From the NCBI GenBank assembly GCA_025358885.1, contig JANYHW010000223.1, positions 1 to 64,000 on the forward strand: a stretch of DNA of 64,000 nt. The letters run 5' to 3'. Positions 44,049 to 63,338 of the stretch are shown piece after piece. A model generated the notes under the pieces. That model saw nothing but the letters and a program-made list of their open reading frames with translations, made no database searches and was not told where the DNA came from. The translations under genes were made by a program, and so were the position numbers. Each line of letters starts with the position of its first letter. Within the stretch, counting starts at the first letter, position 1. The DNA comes from Cytophagales bacterium (GTDB taxonomy: Bacteria; Bacteroidota; Bacteroidia; Cytophagales; Cyclobacteriaceae).

Positions 44049-46766
44049 ATGGGGAGATTAACTGCCAACCATATTGACCACATCACGAAGGACCTGAACC
44101 GAAGAGGTATCATCGATGATGAAATTCAGGCGGAACTGCTGGATCACGTGTGCAGCAGTGTGGAGCTTGAAATGATGAGGGGTATGAATTTCATGGAGGC
44201 ATATCATAAAGTCCTTCACTCTTTTGGTCACAACACGGGTTTGAGACAAGTACAAAAAAGCATTTTACAGACAAGAAATAAACCACCAGAAGTCATGATT
44301 CGAAATTACATCATCCTGGCCATTCGCAACCTGAAGAAACACCGGTTCTATTCATTCATTAATATTGCCGGGCTCGCAACCGGCATTGCAGCCTGCCTCA
44401 TTATTGCTTTGTTCGTAATCCACGAATTAAGCTATGACCGCTACAATGTAAATGCCAGCAGAATTTTCAGGATCAACTCGGAAATAAAATTTGCTGGAAA
44501 TCATGTGATGGTCGCTTCTGTAGGGGCTCCCATGGCGGAAATCCTGACACAGAATTATCCTGAAGTCGAGTCTTACAACCGATTCAAGGACTGGGGGCCG
44601 CGTTATGTAAGGAGGAACGGATCTACCGACCGATTTAGAGAACCCGATGTCATTTGGTCCGATAAGTCCTTTTTTAGCATTTTCACTGTCAACGTTTTGT
44701 CTGGCAGTCCGGCCACAGCCCTCCAGGAGCCTAACTCTATCGCCATTAGTCAAACCATGGCAGAAAAGTATTTTCCAGGAGAAGATGCTCTTGGAAAATC
44801 GCTTATACTTGATGAGGACAATGACTGCAAAGTGACTGCAGTTTTCGAAGACATCCCTGTCACCAGCCACTTTCACTTCCACTTCATTCTCTCCATGGCA
44901 GGCCTGGAAGAAGCCCGCTCAGTCAATTTACTTGGCGGCGCTGACTTGCAAACATATCTGCTATTACATCAGCCCGGAGATAGAGAAGCCCTCGAGAAAA
45001 AGTTTCCCGAATTCATCGATAAATATATCGGTCCTCAAATGGCGGGTGTGTTAGGTGCTGATTTCACCATGACCAAATTCAGGTCGACCGGGAATATGTT
45101 TGAGTATTCACTCATGCCGCTCACCGACATTCATTTGTACTCTGACCTCCTTGGCGAGTTTGAACGCAATGGAAGCATAACCTACGTTTTCCTTTTCTCT
45201 ACGATTGGTATTTTCATCCTTGTCATTGCTTGCATCAACTTTATGAATCTGTCAACGGCCCGATCCTCCAACCGTGCCAAAGAAGTTGGCATCCGAAAAG
45301 TCTTGGGATCCCTCCGGACTCATCTTGTACGACAGTTCTTGATGGAGGCATTCTTATTGAGCGTTATCTCCTTTCTCCTTGCCACTGGCCTTGCCTGGAT
45401 AATCCTCCCTGTCTTTAATGATCTCGCCCAAATTCAAATTTCTCTGCCCCTGAATGATCTTTCCTTCTACGGAATTTTATTATCTGCTTCTATGGTGGTT
45501 GGTCTCCTTGCCGGACTTTATCCTTCCTTTTTCCTTTCCGCATTCAAGCCTATTAATGTATTGAAGGGTCACATCACCCTTGGGATGAAAAGCGGCATCA
45601 TCCGCAGTTCGCTGGTCGTGTTTCAGTTTGTGATTTCTATCTTTCTGATCATCGCCACCCTGACCATCCAAAAGCAATTGGGTTATATTCAAAACAAAAA
45701 ACTGGGTTTTGAAAAAGACCAGGTGCTTGTGGTGAATGAGGCAAGTGCCCTGGGCAATAAGATTGAGTCATTCAAAGAGGATCTCTGTAAGAATAGCTTT
45801 ATCCTAAGCGGAACCATCTCGAGTTACCTTCCAGTAGCCGGTACATGGAGGAGCAATGACACTTTCTGGGGAGAGGGGACACAACCTACCCCCGAAAACA
45901 TGGAAGGGTTTGTCCATGTGCAAAAATGGAAAATTGATTGCGACTACATAAAAACACTCGGGATCACCCTAAAAACCGGAAGGGGGTTCATGCCTGGATC
46001 CCCGGCCGATTCGACAGCGGTTATCCTGAATGAGTCCGCCGTGAAACAATTTGATTTTGGCGACAATCCGCTTGGCAAAACAATTAGCCACTTCAACGGG
46101 GAGAACCAGGATGGAAGTGTTGATCCCAAAAACATCAAGACCTGGACTGTCATCGGTGTAGTGGAGGATTTTCATTTTGAATCCTTCAAGCAGACCATTG
46201 CTCCATTGGGCTTCTTTCTTAGCCCTAGCAATGCGAATGTGAGCTTTCGCTTTGAAGCAACCAATACGCAGGAAGTCATTAAGACTATTGAAAAATCCTG
46301 GAAGGAACTTGCTCCCGGTCAACCTTTCAAATACTCTTTCCTGAATGATGACTTCGGAAGAATGTATTCTTCGGAACAACGCCTCGGAAAGATGTTCGCC
46401 ATCTTCGGTGGGCTGGCCATCCTCATTGCCTGTCTGGGATTATTTGGGCTGAGCGCATTTACGGCCGAGCAGCGGACAAAGGAAATCGGGATCAGGAAGG
46501 TTCTCGGCGCAACCGTAATTGGAATTGTTGTTCTTCTCTCCAAAGAGTTTGGAAAGCTTATTCTGTTTGCTTTTCTGCTCACCTTGCCCCTGGCGTGGTA
46601 TGCCGTGCATTGGTGGTTGGGCAACTATGCTTATAAGGTAGAGATAGGCTTCATGGTATATGTTGCTGCCGGGGCATTGGCATTGATCATTTCATGGCTG
46701 ACCATGGGATACCAATCCATAAAAGCAGCCTCTGCGAATCCTGCAAGTTCCCTTAGAAGTGAATAA
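44049..46766 (+). CDS. FtsX/MacB-type ABC transporter permease with prefix domain (first)
   Basis: A 905-residue permease. Residues 5-77 form a helical permease-prefix domain (HIDHITKDLNRRGIIDDEIQ) also seen in proteins that sit next to PadR regulators. Membrane segment one (about 103-127) precedes a large periplasmic MacB domain; FtsX-like segments follow near 380-500, then a second periplasmic part and three C-terminal segments (785-900) with AEQRTKEIGIRKVLGA. No ATPase is encoded here, so the energy-supplying subunit must come from elsewhere. It is translationally close to its paralog (2 bases). Confidence 0.9.
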   Translation: MGRLTANHIDHITKDLNRRGIIDDEIQAELLDHVCSSVELEMMRGMNFMEAYHKVLHSFGHNTGLRQVQKSILQTRNKPPEVMIRNYIILAIRNLKKHRFYSFINIAGLATGIAACLIIALFVIHELSYDRYNVNASRIFRINSEIKFAGNHVMVASVGAPMAEILTQNYPEVESYNRFKDWGPRYVRRNGSTDRFREPDVIWSDKSFFSIFTVNVLSGSPATALQEPNSIAISQTMAEKYFPGEDALGKSLILDEDNDCKVTAVFEDIPVTSHFHFHFILSMAGLEEARSVNLLGGADLQTYLLLHQPGDREALEKKFPEFIDKYIGPQMAGVLGADFTMTKFRSTGNMFEYSLMPLTDIHLYSDLLGEFERNGSITYVFLFSTIGIFILVIACINFMNLSTARSSNRAKEVGIRKVLGSLRTHLVRQFLMEAFLLSVISFLLATGLAWIILPVFNDLAQIQISLPLNDLSFYGILLSASMVVGLLAGLYPSFFLSAFKPINVLKGHITLGMKSGIIRSSLVVFQFVISIFLIIATLTIQKQLGYIQNKKLGFEKDQVLVVNEASALGNKIESFKEDLCKNSFILSGTISSYLPVAGTWRSNDTFWGEGTQPTPENMEGFVHVQKWKIDCDYIKTLGITLKTGRGFMPGSPADSTAVILNESAVKQFDFGDNPLGKTISHFNGENQDGSVDPKNIKTWTVIGVVEDFHFESFKQTIAPLGFFLSPSNANVSFRFEATNTQEVIKTIEKSWKELAPGQPFKYSFLNDDFGRMYSSEQRLGKMFAIFGGLAILIACLGLFGLSAFTAEQRTKEIGIRKVLGATVIGIVVLLSKEFGKLILFAFLLTLPLAWYAVHWWLGNYAYKVEIGFMVYVAAGALALIISWLTMGYQSIKAASANPASSLRSE

Positions 46767-46768
46767 GG

Positions 46769-49492
46769 GTGCTGCTCCACCATGACCATATTGACTACAT
46801 CATTAAGGACCTCCACAAACGTGGCATTGTGGCTGATGGAATCCAGGAGGAACTGATTGATCACATTTGTTCGGCCGTCGAAATACAAATGAGTCGCGGC
46901 ATCAAATTCCTGGATGCTTATCATACCGTGTTGCATTCTTTCGGACACAACGCCGGGCTACAGAATACCCAGCAACAGTCATTGCAAGTAAAAAATCAAA
47001 ACATCAAACTCATGCTCAGAAACTACCTGACCATTGCTATCCGGAATCTCCGCAAGCAAAGTTTCTATTCCATTATCAATGTTGCTGGACTCGCCGTGGG
47101 TATCGCCGCCTGTCTTGTCATCGTACTGTTCATAATCGATGAACTTGGCTACGACAAGTACAACACGAAAGCCGGCCGCATTTACCGGATAAACAGTGAA
47201 ATAAAGTATGGTGGAAACTATTATCACATGACAACAAGTGCTGCACCAATGGCAAGCGCTCTTCGCGAAGACTATCCAGAAATTGAATCTACGGTGAGAT
47301 TTCGAACCTATGCCCCGTACCTTGTCAAGACGGCAGAAGGAGTTGAGAACATAAAGGAGGAGAATGTTTGGTGGACCGACAGCACCTTTTTTGAAATTTT
47401 TTCGGTACGGGTTTTAGAGGGGGATCCACGCACTGCCTTGAGAGACCCTGCCAGCATTGCCATCAGCAAGCGGACAGCCGAAAAATACTTTCCTCAACGC
47501 AGTGCCCTCGGGCAGTACCTGATTCTCGACAATAACTATCACGCCAAGGTCACCGCGGTTTTTGAAAATATGCCCGCGGCATCACATTTCCATTTTGATA
47601 TACTTATTTCTGTGGTGGGTAACTGGGCGCCGGTTGCCAAAGAAGCGAACTCAACGGTTTTTTTTAGCAACAACTTCACGACTTACGTCTTGTTGCGTGA
47701 GGGCGCCGACCCAAAAGCCTTTGAAGCTAAACTTCCGGGATTCCTCAAAAAGTATGTCGGGCCGCAACTGGCCAAGGTGGTTGGGGGTGATTTTACAATG
47801 GAAAAATTCAAGGCAGGCGGAAACATGTGGGAGCTTTCTTTAATGCCCTTATTGGATATTCACCTGCATTCCGACCTCAAGGGTGAATTTGAACAGAACG
47901 GAAGTATGACGTATGTATATCTGCTCGGCACCGTGGCGTTATTTATCCTCACTATTGCTTGCATAAATTTCATGAACCTATCCACTGCCAGATCCAGCAA
48001 TCGCGCGAAAGAAGTTGGAGTGCGTAAAGTCATGGGCTCTCTGAGGATTCACCTCGTGCGACAATTCCTCACGGAGTCTATTTTGGTCACCCTTTTGGCT
48101 TTTATACTCTCCGTGGGGATCGCTTTACTCTTCCTGCCTCTTTTCAATGACCTTGCGCTCAAGCAGCTCAGCATCCCGTTCACATCCGCCACTTTCTATC
48201 TTAGTCTTGCTGCCGGAGTACTGGTGATCGGAATTCTGGCCGGTGTCTATCCTTCCTTCTTCCTATCCGCATTCAAACCGGTTAATGTTTTGAAAGGAAG
48301 GTTTGTTCCGGGAACAGGAAGCGGATTCACAAGAAGTGCATTGGTAGTCTTTCAGTTCGTTATATCAATTTTTCTCATCATCGGCGCCACAACCATTAAC
48401 AGGCAACTAAAGTACATCCAAAACAAAAAGCTTGGGTTCTCCAAAGACCAGGTAATCGTGGTTCATGATGCTTATGCCCTTCGTCCCAATAAAGTACAAA
48501 CTTTCAAGGAGGAGGTTCTAAAGAATAGCAATATCAAGACAGGTACAATCACGGGCTTTTTACCCGTAGAGGGCAATTCATACCGGAACGACAATCCCTT
48601 TTGGAAAGAAGGTGCCATGCCGGCCATGGAAAACGCTGTAAGCCTGCAGGAGTGGGCCGTTGACAATGACTACGTCGAAACTCTTGGGATGAGTATCAAA
48701 CTTGGACGCGGCTTTTCCGCTGATTTTCCCTCTGACTCGTCTGCCGTTGTTCTCAATGAAGCAGCTGTACAACAGTTTGAATTCGGGACCAATCCTTTAG
48801 GAAAAAAAATCTGTACGATAAATGGGAGGCGACCTGATGGTTTACCTGATCCGGACAAAATTAGATCCTGGACCGTGATCGGTGTGGTGGAAAATTTTCA
48901 TTTCTCCAACATGCGCGAGGGCATAACCTCACTTGGTCTATTTCTGAATGAAAGTGATGGCAATGTTTCGTTTAGATTCAGTGCCAAAGACACTCAAGAA
49001 ATCATTCTGTCCATTGAAAAGGTGTGGAATGGGCTCGCCCCCGACCAGCCTTTCCAATACTCGTTCCTGGACGAAGACTTTGGAAGAATGTATGCTGCCG
49101 AACAGCGTCTTGGAAAAACATTTGCCTTCTTCGCCGGATTGGCCATCGTGATTGCTTGCCTGGGTTTGTTTGCGCTAACTGCCTTCACCGCAGAACAACG
49201 CACCAAAGAAATCGGAATCAGAAAAGTTTTGGGTGCCAGCGTGAGCAGCATCGTGATGCTCCTGTCGAAAGAGTTCGGAAAGCTCATTCTCATCGCCTTC
49301 ATCCTCGCCAGCCCGATTGCATGGTATGGCATTGATTGGTGGCTAAAGAGTTATGCCTACAAGACTGAAATAGGGATCACGGTGTATGTTCTTGCAGGGA
49401 TATCTGCTCTCATAATTGCCTGGATCACAATGGGGTACCAATCCATCAAGGCAGCAACATCAGATCCTGTAAAGTCCCTTCGCAGTGAATAG
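46769..49492 (+). CDS. FtsX/MacB-type ABC transporter permease with prefix domain (second)
   Basis: A 907-residue paralog of the preceding gene: prefix domain (DHIDYIIKDLHKRGIV), TM1 after FYSIINVAGLAVGIAACLVIVLF, MacB periplasmic domains and the C-terminal AEQRTKEIGIRKVLGA. I accept the GTG at 46769 as start because it aligns with the paralog's ATG; the only nearby ATG (46782) is out of frame. The gap is two bases, so translation is coupled. Its last base directly abuts the stop of the convergent M20 gene. Confidence 0.9.
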   Translation: MLLHHDHIDYIIKDLHKRGIVADGIQEELIDHICSAVEIQMSRGIKFLDAYHTVLHSFGHNAGLQNTQQQSLQVKNQNIKLMLRNYLTIAIRNLRKQSFYSIINVAGLAVGIAACLVIVLFIIDELGYDKYNTKAGRIYRINSEIKYGGNYYHMTTSAAPMASALREDYPEIESTVRFRTYAPYLVKTAEGVENIKEENVWWTDSTFFEIFSVRVLEGDPRTALRDPASIAISKRTAEKYFPQRSALGQYLILDNNYHAKVTAVFENMPAASHFHFDILISVVGNWAPVAKEANSTVFFSNNFTTYVLLREGADPKAFEAKLPGFLKKYVGPQLAKVVGGDFTMEKFKAGGNMWELSLMPLLDIHLHSDLKGEFEQNGSMTYVYLLGTVALFILTIACINFMNLSTARSSNRAKEVGVRKVMGSLRIHLVRQFLTESILVTLLAFILSVGIALLFLPLFNDLALKQLSIPFTSATFYLSLAAGVLVIGILAGVYPSFFLSAFKPVNVLKGRFVPGTGSGFTRSALVVFQFVISIFLIIGATTINRQLKYIQNKKLGFSKDQVIVVHDAYALRPNKVQTFKEEVLKNSNIKTGTITGFLPVEGNSYRNDNPFWKEGAMPAMENAVSLQEWAVDNDYVETLGMSIKLGRGFSADFPSDSSAVVLNEAAVQQFEFGTNPLGKKICTINGRRPDGLPDPDKIRSWTVIGVVENFHFSNMREGITSLGLFLNESDGNVSFRFSAKDTQEIILSIEKVWNGLAPDQPFQYSFLDEDFGRMYAAEQRLGKTFAFFAGLAIVIACLGLFALTAFTAEQRTKEIGIRKVLGASVSSIVMLLSKEFGKLILIAFILASPIAWYGIDWWLKSYAYKTEIGITVYVLAGISALIIAWITMGYQSIKAATSDPVKSLRSE

Positions 49493-52396: not shown

Positions 52397-54358
52397 CTAT
52401 TGGTTGGGGCGACCGTCAAAATCGCCACGCAAGGTTCTGTATCGCTTTCTTGCTTCTGCGGCATACACGCTGCCTGGAAATCTGTCCAGAAAGGCACGAT
52501 AAATCTCCATCGCCTTATCCTTATTTTTTAGATACCGCTCATAAGTGTCTCCTTCAGTAAAGTAGGCATCGTCGGCCAGTATATCCTGGCTAAACTCGTT
52601 TACAATTTTTTCTAAAAGTCCGATGGCCTGGTCAAACTCTCCGCGCCTGATTCTGAGATTTGCCTCAAGCCAGTACACATCATCTTTAATAGCAGACGTA
52701 ATCTGAGAATCAACCTCTACCCAAACAGAATCCGCAGCAGTATCCTTGTCTTTTGGCAACAGGCTCCTCGCCACAGCTTCCTTACGGCTCATTTTTACTT
52801 TTCCCGAAACGGAAAACTTCTGGAGTCGGTCAAGTGCCTCATTAGTCTTGTTTTGAACCAACAATAATTCAATCGCGGCATACTCCTTGAGGGCGGCACC
52901 AACAGAGTCAAAGGCAGTATTTTCTTTGATCCGCATGCTGAGCTCCATGGCATCATTTGCAATCTCCCGCGTCGTAGCCTGCTTAAGTATGTCGAGGTGT
53001 TCCTGTGCCAGTCTGAAATCACCTTTGTAATAGGATAGCTTTGCGTTCCGAAGCTTGGCTTCGTATCCCAAAGGAGCATCGCGCTGGCCTTTTTCCACTT
53101 GTGAATAAAGCAGCGTTGCCTCCCAGGGTTCTTCTTTGAGGAGATAAATATCCCCTAATTCCAGTTTGGCCCTTGCTTTCAGGTAGGCCGGAACGCGAGG
53201 ATGCATCGACAAGGCAGTAAGCTTATTTACCGCTGAATCCATTTCATCCAGGTAATACGCATGCAACAAGGCCTCATTCAAAATAGCCTCATAGCTATTT
53301 GCATTATCCGGATACCTCGAAATAAATGATTGATATTCCTTAGTCAAGTACCTGACAGAATCTCTGTTCACAGGAAAATTCCTCTTGACTTTGGCTTCCC
53401 TCGCACGGATGAGTCCAAGACGGGCAGGCAAGTAATTATCCGTGTTAGGAAATTCCCTGATCACATAAGAAAAACTCTTGTCGGCATTTTCATAGTCCTT
53501 GTTATTGAGGGCTATCTGGGCTATCTCAAGGGTTTTGGAACTTTCCTTGCGGAAACGTTTGTCATAGGCACGTGATTGAATAAAGGCGCCATAGAAATTT
53601 TTCTGTTGAAGGTTTACCCAAATCAACAGATCGGCAAAGACTTCCGAATCCGGATATTGCTGTACCTTATCGTACAACATTCGTTCAAGACTTTCAAGCT
53701 CATCTGGTTTATTCAGGAAAAGTTGAAGAAGGTTCTTCACGTAGTTGATGTTCGACGGAGATTGTGTGATGTAGTTCAGGTATTCCTGAACCATTTCGTC
53801 CCGTTTGCCTTGCATGCGGTAGAGATTAGCCATCTCAAGGGTAAAGGCACTTGGATTGTTCAGCGACTGGCGTAATTCCTGCAAGGTCAAAACAGCATAG
53901 TCAGGCAAGTTGTGGGCAGCCAAGTAATCTGAAATAGACTTGGTGCGGTATACATCTGGCAGTGAATTCTTGATTAACGCCTTGAAATATTTGTCAGCCT
54001 TTGTAATGTCCCCTGATCTCACGTACACTACCCCCAGGTCAACACGGTAGGACACCCGGTCATCTACCTTCCGCAATACCCTTTCGACATAATCTTCGGC
54101 CTCCTTATACCGACCCATATCCAGCAACAGCGTTATGTAGTTGTTGTGAATGGCCGGGATATTGTCAACATTCTTTGCCAGGGACTGGTACATCGCCAAC
54201 GCTTTTTCCTTGTCACCTTTCAAGAAATATTCATTGGCTATCCTGATTTCAGAATCTTGGGCAAAGGCCGCAGTATTCATAATTATCCCCAATGCACAGG
54301 ACAGTATTAATGTATTAATCTTTAATAATGAGTAATAAGAGTAATAAGGGTTGTGCAT
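52397..54358 (-). CDS. Exported TPR-repeat protein
   Basis: A 653-residue protein with a signal peptide (about 1-34, ending AAFAQ), then tetratricopeptide-like repeats along the whole chain (NEYFLKGDKEKALAMYQSLAK, DLGVVYVRSGDITKADKYFK). It resembles Bacteroidota TPR proteins thought to scaffold envelope complexes. Its first codons are unusually AT-rich, and the upstream region carries DnaA-box-like sites. The biological role is unknown. Confidence 0.8.
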   Translation of the reverse strand: MHNPYYSYYSLLKINTLILSCALGIIMNTAAFAQDSEIRIANEYFLKGDKEKALAMYQSLAKNVDNIPAIHNNYITLLLDMGRYKEAEDYVERVLRKVDDRVSYRVDLGVVYVRSGDITKADKYFKALIKNSLPDVYRTKSISDYLAAHNLPDYAVLTLQELRQSLNNPSAFTLEMANLYRMQGKRDEMVQEYLNYITQSPSNINYVKNLLQLFLNKPDELESLERMLYDKVQQYPDSEVFADLLIWVNLQQKNFYGAFIQSRAYDKRFRKESSKTLEIAQIALNNKDYENADKSFSYVIREFPNTDNYLPARLGLIRAREAKVKRNFPVNRDSVRYLTKEYQSFISRYPDNANSYEAILNEALLHAYYLDEMDSAVNKLTALSMHPRVPAYLKARAKLELGDIYLLKEEPWEATLLYSQVEKGQRDAPLGYEAKLRNAKLSYYKGDFRLAQEHLDILKQATTREIANDAMELSMRIKENTAFDSVGAALKEYAAIELLLVQNKTNEALDRLQKFSVSGKVKMSRKEAVARSLLPKDKDTAADSVWVEVDSQITSAIKDDVYWLEANLRIRRGEFDQAIGLLEKIVNEFSQDILADDAYFTEGDTYERYLKNKDKAMEIYRAFLDRFPGSVYAAEARKRYRTLRGDFDGRPNQ

Positions 54359-54359
54359 T

Positions 54360-54613
54360 TGTGGATAGCCGTGTAGTGAGGATTATGTTGAAAGAATGTG
54401 TTTTGCTATGTTGATGACTATAGAGCTTAATTGGCTGGATTGGCTGATTTAACTTGTTTTGAACATGTGAAGAGTTAGGGCTTGTAGCTGAATTCAATCA
54501 AAGAACGGTGGATAAGTTGTTTTGGTTTGTTGGCAGCGATGAAATTTGGGTGCTGATCATGAGTTTTTGTTAAAAATACAATAGGTTGAGGGAGTTGGAA
54601 GAAGTTGTCCACA
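54360..54613. other. Cluster of DnaA-box-like sites, possible origin-related region
   Basis: In the 260-base gap between the TPR gene and the lipoprotein gene are three 9-mers, each one mismatch from TTATCCACA: CTATCCACA (54360-54368, minus), TTATCCACC (54507-54515, minus) and TTGTCCACA (54605-54613, plus). An AT-rich block (about 54300-54355) adjoins the first. No reading frame is supported. The cluster is unusual for the window but weak by itself; see findings. Confidence 0.35.
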
Positions 54614-54618
54614 AGTTA

Positions 54619-56358
54619 TCAGAACTTGATTACCAGCGGTCCATTTTCCCAATTTGCCCGCATCGCGAAGTTTTGTAGTTTTTTTGGCGTGAGATAAAAT
54701 GCCACCTTTTCGGGTTCTTGTCCTAAATAAAAATTGCCCGGATCCCATTTGCCATTTTCGTTGGAGTCGATAACGATCCGGATTTGGTAATCCATGGGAG
54801 GCAGATTTTTGAAGGTTTGTTTAAAGACATTTCGGGCACTCGCCACAACTTTGCCTGAAGGATCAAGCAACTGGATTATGAAGCTCTTTTCTTTTGTAAT
54901 TACTTCGATTAATACAATTCCAGTGTCTTCTGGCCAGAGTATGGGGATGTTGGTGGATAGGACCTTGCTCGTATCCTGGTCAATGGAATAAACAAAGGCG
55001 CTCCTGGCTACGAGCGAGAGGGTCGGGTCTTTTTTCAGCTTAAAGATCTTCATGTCCAGTTGTTTGACAATGGTTAGGTCTTTTGTCTTTGGGTTATAAG
55101 TAATATCCTTTTTCGAAACGGAGAGTATCCAGGGTTTTTCAATCCTTTTTGGAATGCTGTCTGTTTGAACGCTGTCTTGTACGATTGTATTCTGACTGGT
55201 ATCTGTAGACCCTTTGTCTTTCGGTTCTTGCTTGGGGGGTGGAGCAGCACTGGCGGTGTCTATTTTTATATAAAGACTGTCAAAGTCAATATCGATGATG
55301 GGCTTGTTAAAGGAGAGTGTAGTTTTAAAGTTTCCGGTTTCGGACTCCACGATAGGAGCGCCAAGTGACCACTTAAAAACTTCCTTGGGACTTTTGGTTA
55401 ACGTCTTTTTGAGATAGAATAAAGTGTCTGCGTGGTTGGAAAGACTATCTGTTGCAGTAAGGTGCAGCCGTAGACTGTCTCCGGTTGTTGATGGATTCCA
55501 GAAAATGACCTCTGATCGGTTGTCACCAAACGCGTGAACGAGATTTGAATCCTGGGCAATGGTGTAATCCGTTATCGGTTTGTTAAAACGAATGCGTGTG
55601 GTTGTTCCCGCATTGCGGATGGTGGATACTTTTAGCCGGCGAGAGTCAAGCATTATCAGACCCAATCCGAGTGAATCCAAATTTTTCTGAAGGAGTATTG
55701 GTTTTGACTGGAACCCAAATCTCTCTGTTTGACTTTCAACCCGAAGGTTCTTGTTTTTGTCATCGAACGCATAAATCTTGTAGGAGCCCGCTTTAATATT
55801 GTCCAGTTTATATTTCCCCTTCTTGTCGGTTTTGGTGAAGTAGCGTGCGGTGTCGGTGAAGATATCAAAGGTGTCGGAATCGTATAGTCCAACAGTTATC
55901 TTGTCGGCAATGCTGCCTTTCAACAAGTTCTTAATTTTTCCGGTGATGTGCAGGGTGTCTATCAGTGGTCCGGTACTAAAGGCAAGTTTGAGATTAATCG
56001 GAATGTTGCTCTCTGTTATGTCTTGAATTGCTTCGCGGAACTGTATGCTGTATGTGGTGCTGTCACGCCATGGTTTTTCGGGGGCAATCGTGACTTTGGT
56101 TCCTTTGACTTTGATCTCAACATTTTTTCCTGCTGATGGACTGATGATTATTTCTTCCCGTGGATTGTTGAGTTTTACCGGCTCGTTGAAGGTGAGTTCT
56201 ATTGCCTTTCCTTTAAAGTTGATTTGATTAGCCGAGGGTATTGAAGATATGAGCCTGGGAGGCTTGAGATCTTTTGGCCCCCCGGATGGAGTGGTAAGGC
56301 TGGCGCATCCATTAAGCAGCAGGATGAATGTGAGAAGGAAGTGATGGCGCCGGATCAT
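54619..56358 (-). CDS. Lipoprotein with SbsA-like Ig domain
   Basis: A 579-residue lipoprotein: signal with lipobox ending LLNGC at Cys18, then a big-5/SbsA-type Ig domain (about 33-130, LISSIPSANQINF), a carboxypeptidase-regulatory-like fold with KKGKYKLDNIKAGSYKIYAFDD, a Pro/Lys-rich disordered stretch (about 365-400) and a closing segment with DSNENGKWDPGNF. The family is usual in Bacteroidota downstream of mnmG and probably sits in the outer membrane. Its start overlaps the methyltransferase stop by 4 bases. Confidence 0.82.
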   Translation of the reverse strand: MIRRHHFLLTFILLLNGCASLTTPSGGPKDLKPPRLISSIPSANQINFKGKAIELTFNEPVKLNNPREEIIISPSAGKNVEIKVKGTKVTIAPEKPWRDSTTYSIQFREAIQDITESNIPINLKLAFSTGPLIDTLHITGKIKNLLKGSIADKITVGLYDSDTFDIFTDTARYFTKTDKKGKYKLDNIKAGSYKIYAFDDKNKNLRVESQTERFGFQSKPILLQKNLDSLGLGLIMLDSRRLKVSTIRNAGTTTRIRFNKPITDYTIAQDSNLVHAFGDNRSEVIFWNPSTTGDSLRLHLTATDSLSNHADTLFYLKKTLTKSPKEVFKWSLGAPIVESETGNFKTTLSFNKPIIDIDFDSLYIKIDTASAAPPPKQEPKDKGSTDTSQNTIVQDSVQTDSIPKRIEKPWILSVSKKDITYNPKTKDLTIVKQLDMKIFKLKKDPTLSLVARSAFVYSIDQDTSKVLSTNIPILWPEDTGIVLIEVITKEKSFIIQLLDPSGKVVASARNVFKQTFKNLPPMDYQIRIVIDSNENGKWDPGNFYLGQEPEKVAFYLTPKKLQNFAMRANWENGPLVIKF

Positions 56359-57242
56359 TTTTGAACCACGTATATAAGGCTGGAGTGGTTAGTGGTTTTG
56401 CGGGCTGCACGATTTGACCGTAGCCCCTGAACAATTGCACGAAGGATTCCAACCATTGTAAGATTACCTCCTGCCCCATATTTCTCGCTAAGCATACTAA
56501 CATAATATGCGTCAAGCTTCATTGGAATAATGTTCTTGATCCTAAGCCCGTGTTGCTCCAGGAGCTGGGTCATTGAAGATTTGGAAAAATGCCAGATGTG
56601 ACGCGGCACATCATAACCTGCCCACGTTTGTTGATAGTGCATTGAATCTGGTGACTGCCAATTGGGTACAGCTATAAAAATGGTGCCACTTTCTGCGAGC
56701 AACGACTTTAGTTTTTGAATGGTCTCAGTCAGGGGGTATACGTGTTCCATGACATGCCACAGGGTGATAGCATCGTACGTTCCTACTGGCAAGCCTGACA
56801 AGGAGGGATAGGCAATGGTGGCACTGGCATTGGCGATACTTCTTGCCTCTTCCGAGGGTTCGACGCCGACTGCTTCAAACCCTTTTTCTTTGCAATGGAG
56901 TAGAAAGGCCCCGGTTCCACATCCATAATCGAGTAATTTCTTTCGGTGACCGTGATGGTTAACAAGTCGGGACTTCCAATTTAGCGTGAAGGACCTGATT
57001 ATCAGATATATATGATCAAATATACCGGTGGCTTTGGATTGATGCGATATGTATTGAGTTGATTTGTAATATGAAGTGGAGTCAGTTTCTCTTGGCCGTG
57101 GATTGGTAAGGAGGAGTTGGCAACCGTCACATTGTTCCACATGAAACACCTGACCTGTAGACGTAAAGTCTTTGCAGGTTAGATGATGGTGAAAGGACTT
57201 TCCATTACATAGTGGACAGACTTCGAGATTTTCCAATGACAT
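56355..57242 (-). CDS. Class I SAM-dependent methyltransferase with zinc-ribbon N-terminus
   Basis: A 295-residue protein. Residues 8-40 hold a CxxC pair of zinc-ribbon type (CPLCNGKSFHHH, then CDGCQLL), followed by a Rossmann methyltransferase core with LLDYGCGTGAFLLHC (about 103-117) and the WHVMEHV loop. The target is unknown; related proteins methylate sugars or small molecules. It overlaps mnmG by one base (TAATG) and the lipoprotein by four, so all three are coupled. A parS-like sequence lies inside it at 57133. Confidence 0.85.
   Translation of the reverse strand: MSLENLEVCPLCNGKSFHHHLTCKDFTSTGQVFHVEQCDGCQLLLTNPRPRETDSTSYYKSTQYISHQSKATGIFDHIYLIIRSFTLNWKSRLVNHHGHRKKLLDYGCGTGAFLLHCKEKGFEAVGVEPSEEARSIANASATIAYPSLSGLPVGTYDAITLWHVMEHVYPLTETIQKLKSLLAESGTIFIAVPNWQSPDSMHYQQTWAGYDVPRHIWHFSKSSMTQLLEQHGLRIKNIIPMKLDAYYVSMLSEKYGAGGNLTMVGILRAIVQGLRSNRAARKTTNHSSLIYVVQK
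57133..57148 (+). other. parS-like site inside the methyltransferase gene
   Basis: TGTTCCACATGAAACA differs from the parS consensus TGTTNCACGTGAAACA at one position (G to A in the centre). It encodes VFHVEQ of the methyltransferase on the minus strand, so coding constraint is an alternative explanation. Confidence 0.45.
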
Positions 57243-59107
57243 TATTTGCCAAGATAGACGGTCATGATAGATACATCTGCAGGGGAAACCCCGCTGATGC
57301 GCGACATCTGACCAATGGTTGAGGGTTTCTGCTTTTTCAGTTTCTCCCTGGCTTCTGAGGAAAGTGCATTAACACGATCATAATCGAAGTCTGGTTGAAT
57401 TGCATAATTGTCCAGGCTCTCAATTTTTTCGGCCATTTTTTGTTCGCGATCTATGTATGGCTCATACTTTACGACAATCTCAGCCTGTTCAGCAACATCA
57501 GTTGAGAATTTTCCTATGAGGCTGGCTATGGAGATGTGCAATTTCTGAACTTCTTTAACGCCAATTTCGGGCCTTTTCAACAAGGTTGTAATGGAGTTTT
57601 TTTCCCGAATGGGAGATGAATTAATTTTTGCCAGTCCTTCGTTGATTTCTTCTGGCATTAGTTTGGTTGATGACAATTCATTTAGAAGAGTGGCCAAACC
57701 GCTCTTCTTTTCTTCAAGTGCTGCCAGTCTTTTGTCACTGGCCAATCCTAATGCATGTCCCTTTTCAGTAAGTCGTAAGTCTGCATTGTCCTGACGAAGC
57801 AAAATCCTGTACTCAGCCCTGGAGGTAAACATCCGGTAAGGTTCAATGGTGCCCTTGTTGACGAGGTCATCTATCAATACACCAATGTATGCCTCCGACC
57901 TTTTCAGTATGAATGCATCCCGATCATTGATCTTGTTGTGGGCATTGATGCCAGCCATCAGACCTTGACATGCCGCCTCTTCGTAGCCTGTAGTTCCATT
58001 AATTTGCCCTGCAAAGTACAGATTATCAATTAGTTGTGTCTCAAGAGTTGTTTTGAGTTGAGTCGGGGGAAAGTAATCGTATTCTATGGCATAGCCAGGC
58101 CTGAACATCCGTGCATGTTCGAATCCTGGGATCATTGTCATGGCTTTGTATTGAACCTCCTCAGGTAATGAAGTTGAAAAGCCATTGACATAAATTTCAA
58201 CTGTGTTCCATCCTTCGGGCTCTACGAATATTTGGTGGCGATCTCTTTCAGCGAATCGATTGATTTTGTCTTCAATAGATGGGCAATAGCGGGGGCCAAC
58301 TCCTTGTATTCTTCCCTGAAACATGGGGGATTTGGAAAAACCCTTTTCCAATTCTTCGTGGACCATTTCATTCGTGTAGGTAATCCAGCAGCTCAATTGC
58401 CTGGAAGGAGGTTGTGTAGAATCAAGAAATGAGAATTTTCCGGGATTTTCATCACCTCTTTGTTCTTCCATTTTGGAATAGTCAAGAGAGCGTCCATCCA
58501 CTCTCGGAGGGGTACCGGTTTTCATTCTTCCAGACTCAAAGCCTAGTGCAACTAGGCCTTCTGTAAGTCCTGTTGCAGCCTTTTCTGCCGCACGGCCTCC
58601 TCCAAAGCTTTTTTCTCCAATATGAATCTTTCCGTTCAGGAAGGTTCCATTGGTGAGTACAACAGACTTTGCCTGTATTTCAATGCCAAGGGCTGTCTTC
58701 ACGCCAATGGTGCGTCCATTCTGAACAAGAATTTCTGTCACCATTTCCTGCCAGAAGTCAACATTAGGAGTTCTTTCGAGCATAAGGCGCCATTCCTCAG
58801 AGAAACGCATCCGGTCATTTTGTGTCCTAGGACTCCACATCGCTGGGCCCTTTGACCGATTTAGCATTCTGAATTGGATCATTGATCGATCAGAGACTAT
58901 TCCGGAATATCCGCCAAGAGCGTCTATTTCCCTTACAATTTGTCCCTTCGCTACCCCGCCCATGGCAGGATTGCAACTCATTTGTCCAATGGTGGTCATG
59001 TTCATGGTAACCAGGAGAACCTTGGAGCCCATATTGGCTGCTGCTGCCGCTGCTTCACAACCGGCATGGCCCGCACCCACAACAATGACATCGTACTTTT
59101 GAAACAT
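57242..59107 (-). CDS. mnmG: tRNA uridine-5-carboxymethylaminomethyl modification enzyme MnmG
   Basis: A 621-residue FAD protein (GidA) that, with MnmE, installs the cmnm5 group on U34 of tRNAs. FAD site GAGHAGCEAA (11-20); CNPAMGG (45-51) and AKGQIVREIDALGG follow; TGTPPRVDGRSLDYSKM and a YCPSIEDK region are canonical. The C-terminal helical part (about 450-621) binds tRNA and MnmE. mnmE is not in the window. The next gene downstream is a methyltransferase, not rsmG as in many phyla. Two parS-like sites lie immediately upstream. Confidence 0.95.
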   Translation of the reverse strand: MFQKYDVIVVGAGHAGCEAAAAAANMGSKVLLVTMNMTTIGQMSCNPAMGGVAKGQIVREIDALGGYSGIVSDRSMIQFRMLNRSKGPAMWSPRTQNDRMRFSEEWRLMLERTPNVDFWQEMVTEILVQNGRTIGVKTALGIEIQAKSVVLTNGTFLNGKIHIGEKSFGGGRAAEKAATGLTEGLVALGFESGRMKTGTPPRVDGRSLDYSKMEEQRGDENPGKFSFLDSTQPPSRQLSCWITYTNEMVHEELEKGFSKSPMFQGRIQGVGPRYCPSIEDKINRFAERDRHQIFVEPEGWNTVEIYVNGFSTSLPEEVQYKAMTMIPGFEHARMFRPGYAIEYDYFPPTQLKTTLETQLIDNLYFAGQINGTTGYEEAACQGLMAGINAHNKINDRDAFILKRSEAYIGVLIDDLVNKGTIEPYRMFTSRAEYRILLRQDNADLRLTEKGHALGLASDKRLAALEEKKSGLATLLNELSSTKLMPEEINEGLAKINSSPIREKNSITTLLKRPEIGVKEVQKLHISIASLIGKFSTDVAEQAEIVVKYEPYIDREQKMAEKIESLDNYAIQPDFDYDRVNALSSEAREKLKKQKPSTIGQMSRISGVSPADVSIMTVYLGK

Positions 59108-59120
59108 GCTGATTCAGGAG

Positions 59121-59136
59121 TGTTTCACGTGGAACC
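59121..59136 (-). other. parS-like site A (ybeY-mnmG gap)
   Basis: On the minus strand it reads GGTTCCACGTGAAACA, one mismatch from TGTTNCACGTGAAACA, the ParB-binding centromere consensus. It lies 13 bases upstream of the mnmG start codon. Confidence 0.7.
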
Positions 59137-59158
59137 ATTGTCCCAGAGGACGCTAGTC

Positions 59159-59174
59159 TGTTTCACGTGAAACT
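59159..59174 (+). other. parS-like site B (ybeY-mnmG gap)
   Basis: TGTTTCACGTGAAACT matches the parS consensus at 15 of 16 positions, with a perfect 14-bp palindrome GTTTCACGTGAAAC at 59160-59173. It abuts the ybeY stop codon and is 38 bases from site A. Confidence 0.8.
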
Positions 59175-59593: not shown

Positions 59594-60003
59594 CAGGCAT
59601 TCATGTAAAAGCTAAGCTCTACAACCCGCCCGCCCTCTTTGAAATCAACCTCATCAGAGAGGTGTTTCATGAGAAAAATGCCCCGCCCACCAGGTTTTTC
59701 AATATTCTCGGGGGCTGTAGGATCCGGAAGGTTCGCATAATTGAATCCACCACCCTGGTCTTCAACCCTAAATTTGATTGTCGCCTTATCCAGGGAAAGA
59801 GAGAGTGCCACATTCTTAGAGGAGTCATTGCGACTTCCATGCCTTATGGCATTATTAACAGCCTCTGTGACGGCAATCATGATGTTCCCGTAGATATCGT
59901 CGTCCAGTTGAAATTCATCCTTTACATTGTCAATAAAGCTTTCGATCATCCTGATATTCTCTGACAAAGCAGGTACCTCAATCCGGATGTTCTTCATAAT
60001 CAT
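59593..60003 (-). CDS. HATPase-domain protein (RsbW/SpoIIAB-like)
   Basis: A 136-residue GHKL ATPase domain with the N-box (TEAVNNAIRHGS, about 46-57), the G1 box (DQGGGFNY, 82-89) and the G2 box (KPGGRGIFLMKHL, 103-115). Single-domain proteins like this act as anti-sigma-factor kinases or serine kinases. No anti-anti-sigma (STAS) or phosphatase partner is in the window. It overlaps DUF4175 and ybeY by one base at each end (TAATG, TGATG), so it is translationally coupled to both. Confidence 0.85.
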   Translation of the reverse strand: MIMKNIRIEVPALSENIRMIESFIDNVKDEFQLDDDIYGNIMIAVTEAVNNAIRHGSRNDSSKNVALSLSLDKATIKFRVEDQGGGFNYANLPDPTAPENIEKPGGRGIFLMKHLSDEVDFKEGGRVVELSFYMNA

Positions 60004-63000
60004 TACTTCTGGTTGCCAAGTCTCTTAAAGTACTCACTAACCTCTTTCCTGTAATAGGGATACAGCTTTGGAGGCATGGTCTTGAGCAATTCTACTTCTT
60101 TTTCCTTTAAACGTAAATACTCCTCAAATGCACGGGGTATTTCTTTTTGATAGTCTTTAGCCGTTTCACCCTTGCGCTCTTCATCCAATTCTTGTTCCCG
60201 CATGGATTTTTCTGACTCCAGCAGTCGTGTCAATATTTCTTTCTGCCTTCTAATCGTTTGCTCGGTCAACTGTTTATTCACAAGGTCCATTTCTGTCTGC
60301 TCCATCTTTCCAGGCAGATCTCCTCCAGGCGACTTCCCTCCTTCCTGTTTCAATTTGTCCTGCATCTCCTGTAAGGCTCTTCTAATGCGCTCCTGTTCAG
60401 CTGCCATCTTTGCCAACTCCTCTGACAGTTGCCGTCCACTCTTTCCGCTATTCTTGATTTGCTCCATTTGTTGATTGAGCTGTTGCTGCATCTCTCCAAG
60501 ACTTTGCTGACCCTTTTTCTTTTTTCCTTTTCCCATCGAAGGCATTGCATTGGACATCATGTCCATCATCATTTCAAAATGATCATTAAGCATGAGCGCA
60601 AGGTTATTGATGCCCGTCATGGAAAATTGCATATCGGTACTTGCATTGCTCTTCTTGCGCTCCTTGATATTCTCCACCGCTTTATCCAGGTGACCATTCA
60701 GTTCTCCAACTTCCCTTGTCACCACAGATCCCATGAAAGCATCCTTCTTGGCTAGAGCTAACAAGCTGTCCTCCAACACTTTAGAGTCATCTTTTATCTT
60801 TAGTTGATTCTGAGAAAGTTGCACATATTTCGGATCGCTCTGCTGGATGGCATTGAAATCCTTGATCAGTGACTCCTGGTCGAAGGAGAGTTTGATAAGG
60901 CCGTGAATGATTTGACGCAGGGACTCAAGGTTCTGCTGATCAATCTCCATCTCCATCGAATTCTGCATACCCTCAAGCTGCTGTTGCATTTGTTTCATCT
61001 TTTCAACTGACTTTTTCTGCGGGCCTGAAGCTTTCTTGGGGTTGCCTTGCTCAAGAGATTGCTTGCTCTGCTCTTCGAGTTCCTTCATTTCATTGATTTC
61101 CTGCTCTTGAGGTCCATCATTTTGCTGCTCAACCTCTTCTCCCAACTTGTTGAGTTCATCAATTGTCTTCTTGAATTCATCCGCTTTCTCTTTAAGCTCG
61201 TCCTGCTCTTTCGCCAACTGATCCTCAGTTTTGCCCTTTTCTTCACTCTCCTTTTCCTTTTTTCGGGTATCCGGCTTTTCCCCTGCCAATTCCTGCGTTT
61301 GCTCCAGAATGTCCTGCTGCTTCTCCTTTTGTGCCTTTATCTCTTCGATGGCCTGGTCAAGTTTGTAATCATACTGGAGCTGCTTGAATAGCTCAAGGGT
61401 TCTTTCCAATTCTTTTTCAATGTTGATTTCCTGCCTGTCCATCTTCTCCAGCATTTTCTGAATTTGGGATGGGTCCTGGTTTTCTTTTAACATTTTCTCA
61501 AGTTCTTCGAACATCTTTTTGGTCACATCGTCCAGCAATTCATTCATGAGCTTTTGAATTTGTTCGGACTTTTCCTTAATCCGCTCGTTCTGTTCCGCAT
61601 ATGAATCCTTTTTCTCTTCGAGGAGTTTGTTTTCGTCTTGCAATTGTTTTACCAACTGATCCAGGCTCTTTCGCTGTTGAATTAGATCCTCGAGCATCTT
61701 CTTATCCTGCCAGTTAAGCGATTGCTTGCCCTTGAGTTGTTGCTCCGCCTCTTCGATAGCATCTTTTAGGGACTTTGCTTTCGTGAGGCTTTTTTCAATG
61801 TCACTTTCTGTTGATGATTGTGAGCGTTTGATTTCTGCCTTGAATTCTTCCGAACCTGGTAATTCGAATTGATAAGAAGATGATTTGGTTGACTTCCTTC
61901 CGTGTACACCATCATTATCCCAGACCTCCAGGTTGTATTGAAGATGGTCACCCGCAACCAAATGGAGCGAGTCCAGCATCCAGTTGTAAAAAAAGTTCTG
62001 TTGTGACTGATTTGGATCAATGATGATGTTTATGGTACTCGATTTCTCCTCCTTGTCTTTGCTGATCACCTTGTAGTGAATATCCAATTGTGATAGACCG
62101 TAATCATCCTGAATATTTCCGGCCAGGACAATGGACTTGAACAAGATTGAGTCTTTCAGATGATCAACAACAATTGATGGATACTGGTCTTTGATAACGT
62201 CAATCCGGTACGCAATCCGATCTCTATTTTTGCTATTTTCATTTTCCAGCGTAATGGCGTACTCGTCAGGATTAAAGAAATTCTTCTCGAATCCAAAGAT
62301 TTGATTATCAGCCTGTTGCATGCCATTATCGCCCGATTTTGATGAAAAGGAAATATGGGCTGATTGAGCACTTGAGGCATTCACCCTCCATTGAACACGC
62401 GTGCCCTCCGGTATTTCAAGATTGCCAGCATTTCTCAGCTCCTGGACTGGCCTTCCGATGTAGCGAGGGAAATTAAGTTTCACATTAAGGCTCAGCAACT
62501 CAGGCCGGTTCACCAACTTGATAGTGAAGGCGGATGAATAGAATCCAGCAGCCTCCAACTGAAAGGGAAAATCTTGCTGCAGTTTTTCAAAAGTGTATGA
62601 GAATGTTCCTGCCTTTAGCGTTTCCATTTTTAATCGCTGTGGACCAGACACCAGGTACACAGCCTCGGGAATAGCCTCTCCTTGTAACCGGACACTCAGC
62701 ACAAAATCCTCATTTGGGTAGGAGACAAGACGTTCATTTTGCACAACGAACTCAAAAGGAGCCTGTGGAGAAAACTCCTGGTTGAAGTGGATAATTCTGT
62801 CGGCACTTTGTGTAAAAATATTCTGATTGACAGCGAATATCAGCGCTGAAAGAATGAGTGGAATGAAAAGATACTTGAGGTAGCGTTTATTATCCGAAAG
62901 ATCAACACTGCGCTCAAAGGAAAACCCTTCAAAAGATGATGCTTTCTGTTCAAGGCTGGCCTCGAGCAAGACACTTGGCCTGGAGGTCATGGCGGCAAGC

Positions 63001-63338
63001 TGAAGAAAATTCAATAGCCTGTCCTGGATAGTCGGGAAATAGCTTCCAATCATCCGGGCACTCTGCTCCTTCCCGATTCCTCTCCCAGCCAACCACCAAG
63101 CCAGGGGAAGGCGCAAGAAGCGAGACAGACAATACAGCACGGTAGCGAAGAAAAAGATGAAAAGGGAAAGCCGAACCCCCTTCCCTAGCCAGAGATTGTA
63201 CTCAATGATTGTAGCCAGAAGGAGATAGGCAAGGATTAACGTTGTGGAAATGATTGCTCCCCGGATGAATAAATTCAAATAGTATTTCTTCCGAAAAGAG
63301 GCAATTTTTTCATCGACAGACTTTACCTGATTCCCCAT
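60003..63338 (-). CDS. DUF4175 family membrane protein, 1111 residues
   Basis: The largest gene here. N-terminal membrane segments (about 25-75, and near 155-172) anchor a periplasmic beta-rich region (about 200-500). The last half (about 510-1080) is almost entirely charged and Gln-rich: QQLKGKQ, EEKGKTEDQLAKEQDELKEK, KKGQQSLGEMQQQLNQQMEQ, predicted as long coiled coil. The family is common in Bacteroidota and uncharacterised. It heads the operon HATPase-ybeY-mnmG-methyltransferase-lipoprotein. A palindrome lies upstream. Confidence 0.85.
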   Translation of the reverse strand: MGNQVKSVDEKIASFRKKYYLNLFIRGAIISTTLILAYLLLATIIEYNLWLGKGVRLSLFIFFFATVLYCLSRFLRLPLAWWLAGRGIGKEQSARMIGSYFPTIQDRLLNFLQLAAMTSRPSVLLEASLEQKASSFEGFSFERSVDLSDNKRYLKYLFIPLILSALIFAVNQNIFTQSADRIIHFNQEFSPQAPFEFVVQNERLVSYPNEDFVLSVRLQGEAIPEAVYLVSGPQRLKMETLKAGTFSYTFEKLQQDFPFQLEAAGFYSSAFTIKLVNRPELLSLNVKLNFPRYIGRPVQELRNAGNLEIPEGTRVQWRVNASSAQSAHISFSSKSGDNGMQQADNQIFGFEKNFFNPDEYAITLENENSKNRDRIAYRIDVIKDQYPSIVVDHLKDSILFKSIVLAGNIQDDYGLSQLDIHYKVISKDKEEKSSTINIIIDPNQSQQNFFYNWMLDSLHLVAGDHLQYNLEVWDNDGVHGRKSTKSSSYQFELPGSEEFKAEIKRSQSSTESDIEKSLTKAKSLKDAIEEAEQQLKGKQSLNWQDKKMLEDLIQQRKSLDQLVKQLQDENKLLEEKKDSYAEQNERIKEKSEQIQKLMNELLDDVTKKMFEELEKMLKENQDPSQIQKMLEKMDRQEINIEKELERTLELFKQLQYDYKLDQAIEEIKAQKEKQQDILEQTQELAGEKPDTRKKEKESEEKGKTEDQLAKEQDELKEKADEFKKTIDELNKLGEEVEQQNDGPQEQEINEMKELEEQSKQSLEQGNPKKASGPQKKSVEKMKQMQQQLEGMQNSMEMEIDQQNLESLRQIIHGLIKLSFDQESLIKDFNAIQQSDPKYVQLSQNQLKIKDDSKVLEDSLLALAKKDAFMGSVVTREVGELNGHLDKAVENIKERKKSNASTDMQFSMTGINNLALMLNDHFEMMMDMMSNAMPSMGKGKKKKGQQSLGEMQQQLNQQMEQIKNSGKSGRQLSEELAKMAAEQERIRRALQEMQDKLKQEGGKSPGGDLPGKMEQTEMDLVNKQLTEQTIRRQKEILTRLLESEKSMREQELDEERKGETAKDYQKEIPRAFEEYLRLKEKEVELLKTMPPKLYPYYRKEVSEYFKRLGNQK

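Follow-up and report, generated by a model that had tools for sequence, protein, structure and literature searches.

We found that region 54283-54618 of the window (the whole 64,000-nucleotide stretch of Cytophagales DNA analysed) is predicted by its sequence to be a DnaA-dependent chromosomal origin of replication (oriC), with a probability that we put at roughly 0.9. The initial annotation had proposed a possible origin region near mnmG; that proposal was supported by box-rich gaps recurring in relatives, by clustered parS-like sites and by the GC skew of one relative. The predicted oriC is ordinary in kind, apart from its overlap with the start of a gene.

Gene order around the predicted origin

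The intergenic part of the predicted oriC lies in a run of minus-strand genes, with a methyltransferase gene between the Ig-like gene and mnmG:

52397-54358, minus strand: TPR protein gene; N-terminus signal-peptide-like by eye; start codon inside the predicted origin
54359..54618, no strand: predicted oriC, intergenic part, between the Ig-like and TPR genes
54619-56358, minus strand: Ig-like (Big_5, DUF2141) protein gene, flanking the predicted origin
57242-59107, minus strand: gene that we take to be mnmG (gidA); synteny

We searched 58 same-genus genomes, the present one among them, with the Ig-like protein and found a match in 54, one of them weak; the gap was read in 31. The order mnmG, methyltransferase, Ig-like, TPR was kept in all 31 of these, with a gap mostly about 240-270 bp long. 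The shared orientation of the genes had been raised as an argument against an origin. It is true of the window but weighs little, since the flanking genes are co-oriented in relatives as well. Two other reading-frame groups in the window were also noted. A protein of 1111 aa with a DUF4175 match is encoded at 60003-63338, three genes past mnmG, and two tandem reading frames of ~905 aa at 44049-49492 look by eye like FtsX-type ABC permease paralogues.

DnaA boxes in the window

Five sites resembling the DnaA box TTATCCACA were located in and beside the gap:

54605-54613, plus strand: DnaA box, TTGTCCACA, one mismatch; inverted relative to the others; just past the Ig-like stop codon
54507-54515, minus strand: DnaA box, TTATCCACC, one mismatch
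54360-54368, minus strand: terminal DnaA box, CTATCCACA, one mismatch; one base off the TPR start codon
54352-54360, minus strand: weak tandem box, AAATGCACA, three mismatches; contains the TPR start codon; a similar block is present in the gap alignment
54283-54291, plus strand: DnaA-box-like site, TTATCCCCA, one mismatch; within the signal-peptide codons of the TPR gene, past the AT-rich tract

The first three of these had already been reported as one-mismatch 9-mers in the gap, and all three were recovered. The assembly of 3,840,715 bases contains 1128 one-mismatch sites, and 637 for the reversed pattern used as a control. At the assembly density 0.076 sites are expected per 260 bp; the earlier figure for the gap was about 0.05. 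Shuffles of the gap contained 0.127 sites on average, and three sites were reached in a fraction of 0.0004 of 5000 shuffles. By Poisson arithmetic on the assembly density, about one chance triple is expected among ~14,800 windows of the genome. The box count alone is thus not diagnostic, and this genome by itself does not decide the matter; taken alone, its sequence offers modest evidence for oriC.

Two further sequences were also followed. For TATCCACAAATGCACA, at the place of the terminal box, the assembly has a single match when one mismatch is allowed, and the same holds for its reversed control. The 16-mer TATCCACAWATGCACA, again at up to one mismatch, has a single place in the assembly, namely the predicted origin. 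It was found at the origin locus of three relatives (G009, G020 and G046), in G020 with a second place, and had no match in G024 or G041; its reversed control matched once in the present assembly and once in G024.

Conservation of the boxes in relatives

We then compared the gaps of the genus, whose sequences are not independent of one another. The 31 same-genus gaps, counted with two incomplete loci (L015 and L017) left out, contain 93 sites with no more than one mismatch, including 23 exact ones. In 300 dinucleotide shuffles of the same gaps 3.9 +/- 1.9 sites were found (largest 11), with 0.19 exact. Among all 6605 9-mers of the gaps, TTATCCACA ranks first in number of one-mismatch sites. 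Counted from the Ig-like stop codon, box positions recur at offsets near 5-16, 103, 134, 216 and 255. An inverted box is found again at offset 2-23 in relatives, often as exact TTATCCACA, and a box in the direction of 54507-54515 at offset ~93-103. A box one base from the ATG, either one-mismatch or exact, is present in 17 of 30 same-genus genomes. Inverted box-like sites at offsets 322-334 in G042, G029 and G020 can be compared with 54283-54291. Box counts per gap are uneven: three in the present genome and one each in G024, G053, G019 and G040. The lack of an exact box, put forward earlier as a counter-argument, holds for the window but carries little weight, since relatives have exact boxes.

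The comparison was widened to 80 loci kept from named public records, of which three were dropped for too short an upstream sequence. In the remaining 77 Cytophagales loci we counted 372 sites, of which 103 are exact, whereas the sequence elsewhere in these loci predicts 17.6. Many of the loci repeat same-genus genomes, so that the counts of 93 and 372 are not independent. At least two sites were found in 68 of the 77 loci and at least three in 60. Records titled Cesiribacter, Nafulsella, Dyadobacter and Xanthocytophaga have 5-12 sites and those titled Fulvivirga 3-8, while a locus without the neighbouring genes (L258) has one site against 2.1 expected. A genome of another family (G061) has 13 sites in its gap region together with an exact inverted box pair.

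The cluster of DnaA boxes is beyond chance and conserved in place. It is this comparison with relatives, not the genome itself, that carries the case for oriC and, at the level of sequence, appears to settle most of it. That the window merely holds a chance cluster of degenerate 9-mers would fit the expectation of about one such triple per genome and the fact that its boxes are all inexact. We nevertheless regard chance as scarcely credible, as the conservation in 31 gaps and 77 loci refutes it as far as sequence can.

Two further loci were observed during this comparison. In G065, of another family, three exact inverted DnaA-box pairs surround the Ig-like gene (C7:251674-253550), which suggests that there the origin flanks or includes this gene. 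In L244 (LS999829.1) a TPR gene and eight box-like sites are found on a record of 0.62 Mb whose title names it chromosome IV of a Cytophagales bacterium. Such a location is odd for a main origin and may be a matter of assembly naming.

parS-like sites and GC skew

Three parS-like sites were found near mnmG:

57133-57148, plus strand: parS-like site, two mismatches
59121-59136, plus strand: parS-like site, two mismatches
59159-59174, plus strand: parS-like site, one mismatch

With up to two mismatches, these three are the only ones in the assembly. They lie within ~2 kb of each other and 2.5-4.6 kb from the gap, which agrees with the distance first reported for the parS sites (57133-59174) and mnmG (57242-59107). 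A control pattern matches the assembly three times as well, so it is the clustering within 2 kb, not the number of sites, that counts. At up to one mismatch, parS-like sites were present in 5 of 12 relatives. In G024, G041 and G066 they are near the same locus as the site at 59159-59174; in G061 the site is far from the gap and in G086 ~24 kb from the Ig-like gene. The other 7 of the 12 have none at this threshold, and the control pattern has no matches in the 12 at up to one mismatch. Origin-proximal parS-like sites are present at the locus, though the control count in the present assembly is equal. Linkage of parB to the parS-like sites was also considered and dropped: parB is on another contig here (G000 C14:7055-7570), and in G024 (C1:31261-31758) it is ~1.7 Mb from the parS-like sites around the circle.

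The GC-skew check proposed in the initial annotation was run in relatives. In G024, which is a single 4.26-Mb contig, the sign flip of the sampled skew falls between the samples at 2.451 Mb and 2.558 Mb, and the gap is at 2.5746 Mb; the skew maximum is at the 0.43-Mb sample, with the exact opposite of the gap at 0.443 Mb. Two overlapping samples at the gap were both summed in this sampled curve. The fine cumulative curve is free of the double count and has its minimum at 2,545,373, 29 kb from the gap. The skew of G041 is a noisy plateau with a minimum 0.41 Mb from the gap and a maximum at 0.87 Mb, not far from the opposite position (1.0 Mb). The check thus came out in favour of the gap in G024 and not in G041; as the latter curve is uninformative, the skew support comes from one genome, G024. 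A skew minimum far from the gap, one of the two results named at the outset as refuting the proposal, did not clearly materialise. The present genome, in 246 contigs, is too fragmented for the check; its 86.9-kb contig has a cumulative skew of -1125 at 54 kb and a minimum of -1212 at 82.5 kb.

These data bear on another explanation of the boxes, namely that they serve DnaA in controlling the TPR promoter and that the real origin is elsewhere. DnaA acts as a transcription factor too, the gap is the upstream region of the TPR gene, and one box is a single base from its start codon. The number and spread of the sites (up to 13 in G061) exceed the needs of a promoter, however, and the gap is favoured as the origin by the skew of G024 and by the clustering of the parS-like sites. 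We consider the promoter explanation very unlikely. A scan of 54200-54700 for sigma-70-type promoters gave one match against a shuffle mean of 1.3, nothing above chance.

Candidate origins elsewhere

Other parts of the genomes were scanned for a better origin, the scan covering sampled sequence from G024 and G041 plus a list of places in the present genome. The dnaA gene is on another contig in the present genome (G000) and far from the gap in G024. Its neighbourhood was rejected as an origin, a box cluster upstream of dnaA being absent: three one-mismatch boxes are inside the present dnaA gene and none just upstream, G024 has two scattered sites in 4 kb around dnaA and G041 none in 6 kb. In G041 the gap is the densest box cluster (4 sites) in the sampled 1.2 Mb. 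The densest cluster in the sampled sequence of G024 (3 sites) is near 3.62 Mb, not at the gap.

An exact inverted DnaA-box pair with a 10-base spacer was detected at two places of the present assembly (C205:507-534 and C230:34-61; L172 and L173), within a 104-base stretch common to both contigs. The flank of the pair on C205 is presumably the start of a 16S rRNA gene. As a better origin the pair was set aside, for it looks like the leader of an rRNA operon and occurs in 1 of 35 other same-genus genomes (G034); it could tie rRNA transcription to DnaA. In the places scanned, a better origin elsewhere, also named at the outset as what would refute the proposal, did not clearly materialise: nothing was found upstream of dnaA, and the exact pair is a probable rRNA-operon leader.

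An AT-rich tract overlapping the start of the TPR gene

The AT-rich block described earlier at the start of the TPR gene was confirmed, and a repeated triplet motif was found within it:

54303-54362, no strand: AT-richest 60 bp, presumed DNA unwinding element; GC 0.23; overlaps TPR codons 1-19
54324-54347, no strand: DnaA-trio-like tract; an unbroken run of eight triplets, NTN as read on the minus strand and NAN as read on the plus, preceded by a 12-base spacer

The AT-richest 60 bp begins 4 bases upstream of the TPR start codon, so that the block is mostly inside coding sequence. In 29 of 30 same-genus genomes it begins between -16 and +11 of this codon, the exception being at -119; L014, which has no usable start, was left out. 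In the window this AT-rich element adjoins the terminal DnaA box, and 29 of the 30 genomes have the element in the matching position. In more distant relatives (23 hand-picked loci with TPR proteins 37-52% identical, starts set by the nearest ATG) the AT-richest 60 bp starts upstream of the codon throughout, at -46 at the nearest (median -69). TPR codons 2-21 have a GC content of 0.206 in the 30 same-genus genomes versus 0.368 in these 23 loci. As a control for AT-rich gene starts in general, the neighbouring genes gave 0.431 (Ig-like, 26 genomes) and 0.416 (methyltransferase, 30 genomes). Y, N, I, K or F make up 57% of the residues at TPR codons 2-21 in the 30 genomes.

TPR start calls may be wrong in some genomes, and the predicted origin could be right while the gene starts at another codon, leaving the melting tract non-coding. 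The ATG does shift by some codons among relatives (MH.., MDN.., MT..), and G023 has none at this place, its first in-frame ATG being further upstream. Against this, an in-frame ATG is at or near the same place in 30 of 31 same-genus genomes, and the window offers just one other in-frame ATG ahead of the mature protein, at codon 27; a start there would do away with the signal peptide. A different start is unlikely in our view. Overlap of the predicted oriC with a gene start appears to be unusual and specific to this genus, and its simplest reading is that either the start of the gene has shifted into the unwinding element or the element has shifted into the gene. We tentatively suggest that origin and gene have merged: the predicted unwinding element would be translated as the start of the signal peptide of an exported TPR protein, its N-terminus (rich in Y, N, I, K and F) would be dictated by origin function, and DnaA at the start codon would couple expression to replication initiation. 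This extended proposal is possible, although we would sooner bet against it.

The tract was also compared with the basal unwinding system (BUS). According to PMC8287927, the rule for this module is a DnaA box with up to two mismatches, a spacer of up to 16 and at least three NAN triplets. The window has a box with one mismatch, a spacer of 12 and eight triplets, and thus fits the rule; none of 300 shuffles reached a run of eight. As in the module outlined there, a DnaA box, a weaker tandem box, a 12-base spacer and eight NAN triplets occur together, but here the tract is protein-coding and the module is not consistent across the genus. At least three triplets were found in 20 of 33 genomes, with a mean run of 3.3 versus 2.2 in shuffles, and the run was at P 0.05 or less in just 6 of the 33, in a survey whose script probably missed the terminal box in some genomes, e.g. 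G040 and G041. Trios were dropped as a genus-wide feature on the strength of the 6 of 33, whereas AT-richness is conserved.

The arrangement of tract and boxes also helps to judge whether the cluster is instead a datA- or DARS-like site, one that titrates or reactivates DnaA close to the origin. A DnaA-box cluster in an apparent origin region is what such a site would look like. The AT-rich tract directly after the terminal box speaks against it, as do the conserved order beside mnmG and the parS-like sites in some relatives, and we find a site of this type even less probable than a promoter.

With the locus read as oriC, DnaA would bind the spaced boxes in the gap and assemble from the terminal and weak tandem boxes onto the adjacent AT-rich trio-like tract. 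It would then melt this tract for helicase loading, and ParB at the nearby parS-like sites would move new origins apart. As the predicted melting tract in this genus also encodes the start of the TPR protein (its first ~20 codons), DnaA binding may in addition repress or time the TPR gene.

Comparison with known origins

In E. coli, oriC is beside gidA/mnmG and has DnaA boxes and an AT-rich element, all of which the window resembles; the E. coli unwinding element is intergenic, unlike the one predicted here. A replicative oriC of Cytophaga hutchinsonii, which belongs to the same order as the present host, was reportedly described by Xu et al. 2012 and used in plasmids.

Origins adjoining mnmG have been predicted in Flavobacteriaceae with Ori-Finder, on the basis of GC skew and DnaA boxes (PMC12843772 and PMC11278836). 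The predicted oriC shares their mnmG-adjacent position. It differs from those origins, likewise predictions, in having a methyltransferase gene and the Ig-like gene between mnmG and oriC, and in an AT-rich tract that reaches into the TPR gene. In PMC11278836 dnaA did not fit the skew, and a figure legend has oriC and ter reversed relative to the text. PMC4755523 describes oriC as commonly far from dnaA in Bacteroidetes. Origins near mnmG and distant from dnaA are thus already in print as predictions for Bacteroidota, and what is unusual here is the overlap with a gene start. Among the literature matches listed (titles and starts of abstracts), there was no origin whose unwinding element is a gene start and no Cytophagales origin adjacent to a TPR gene, which is weak evidence of absence.

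Ori-Finder 2022 describes itself as scoring intergenic sequences, and on that description it would lose the melting part of the predicted origin. Should the overlap be true, a single stretch of DNA is constrained by both replication and protein coding, and initiation may be linked directly to an exported protein. The locus also provides a testable oriC candidate for a mostly uncultured Cytophagales group, and the order mnmG, Ig-like, TPR can serve as a landmark for origins in draft genomes where skew is unusable.
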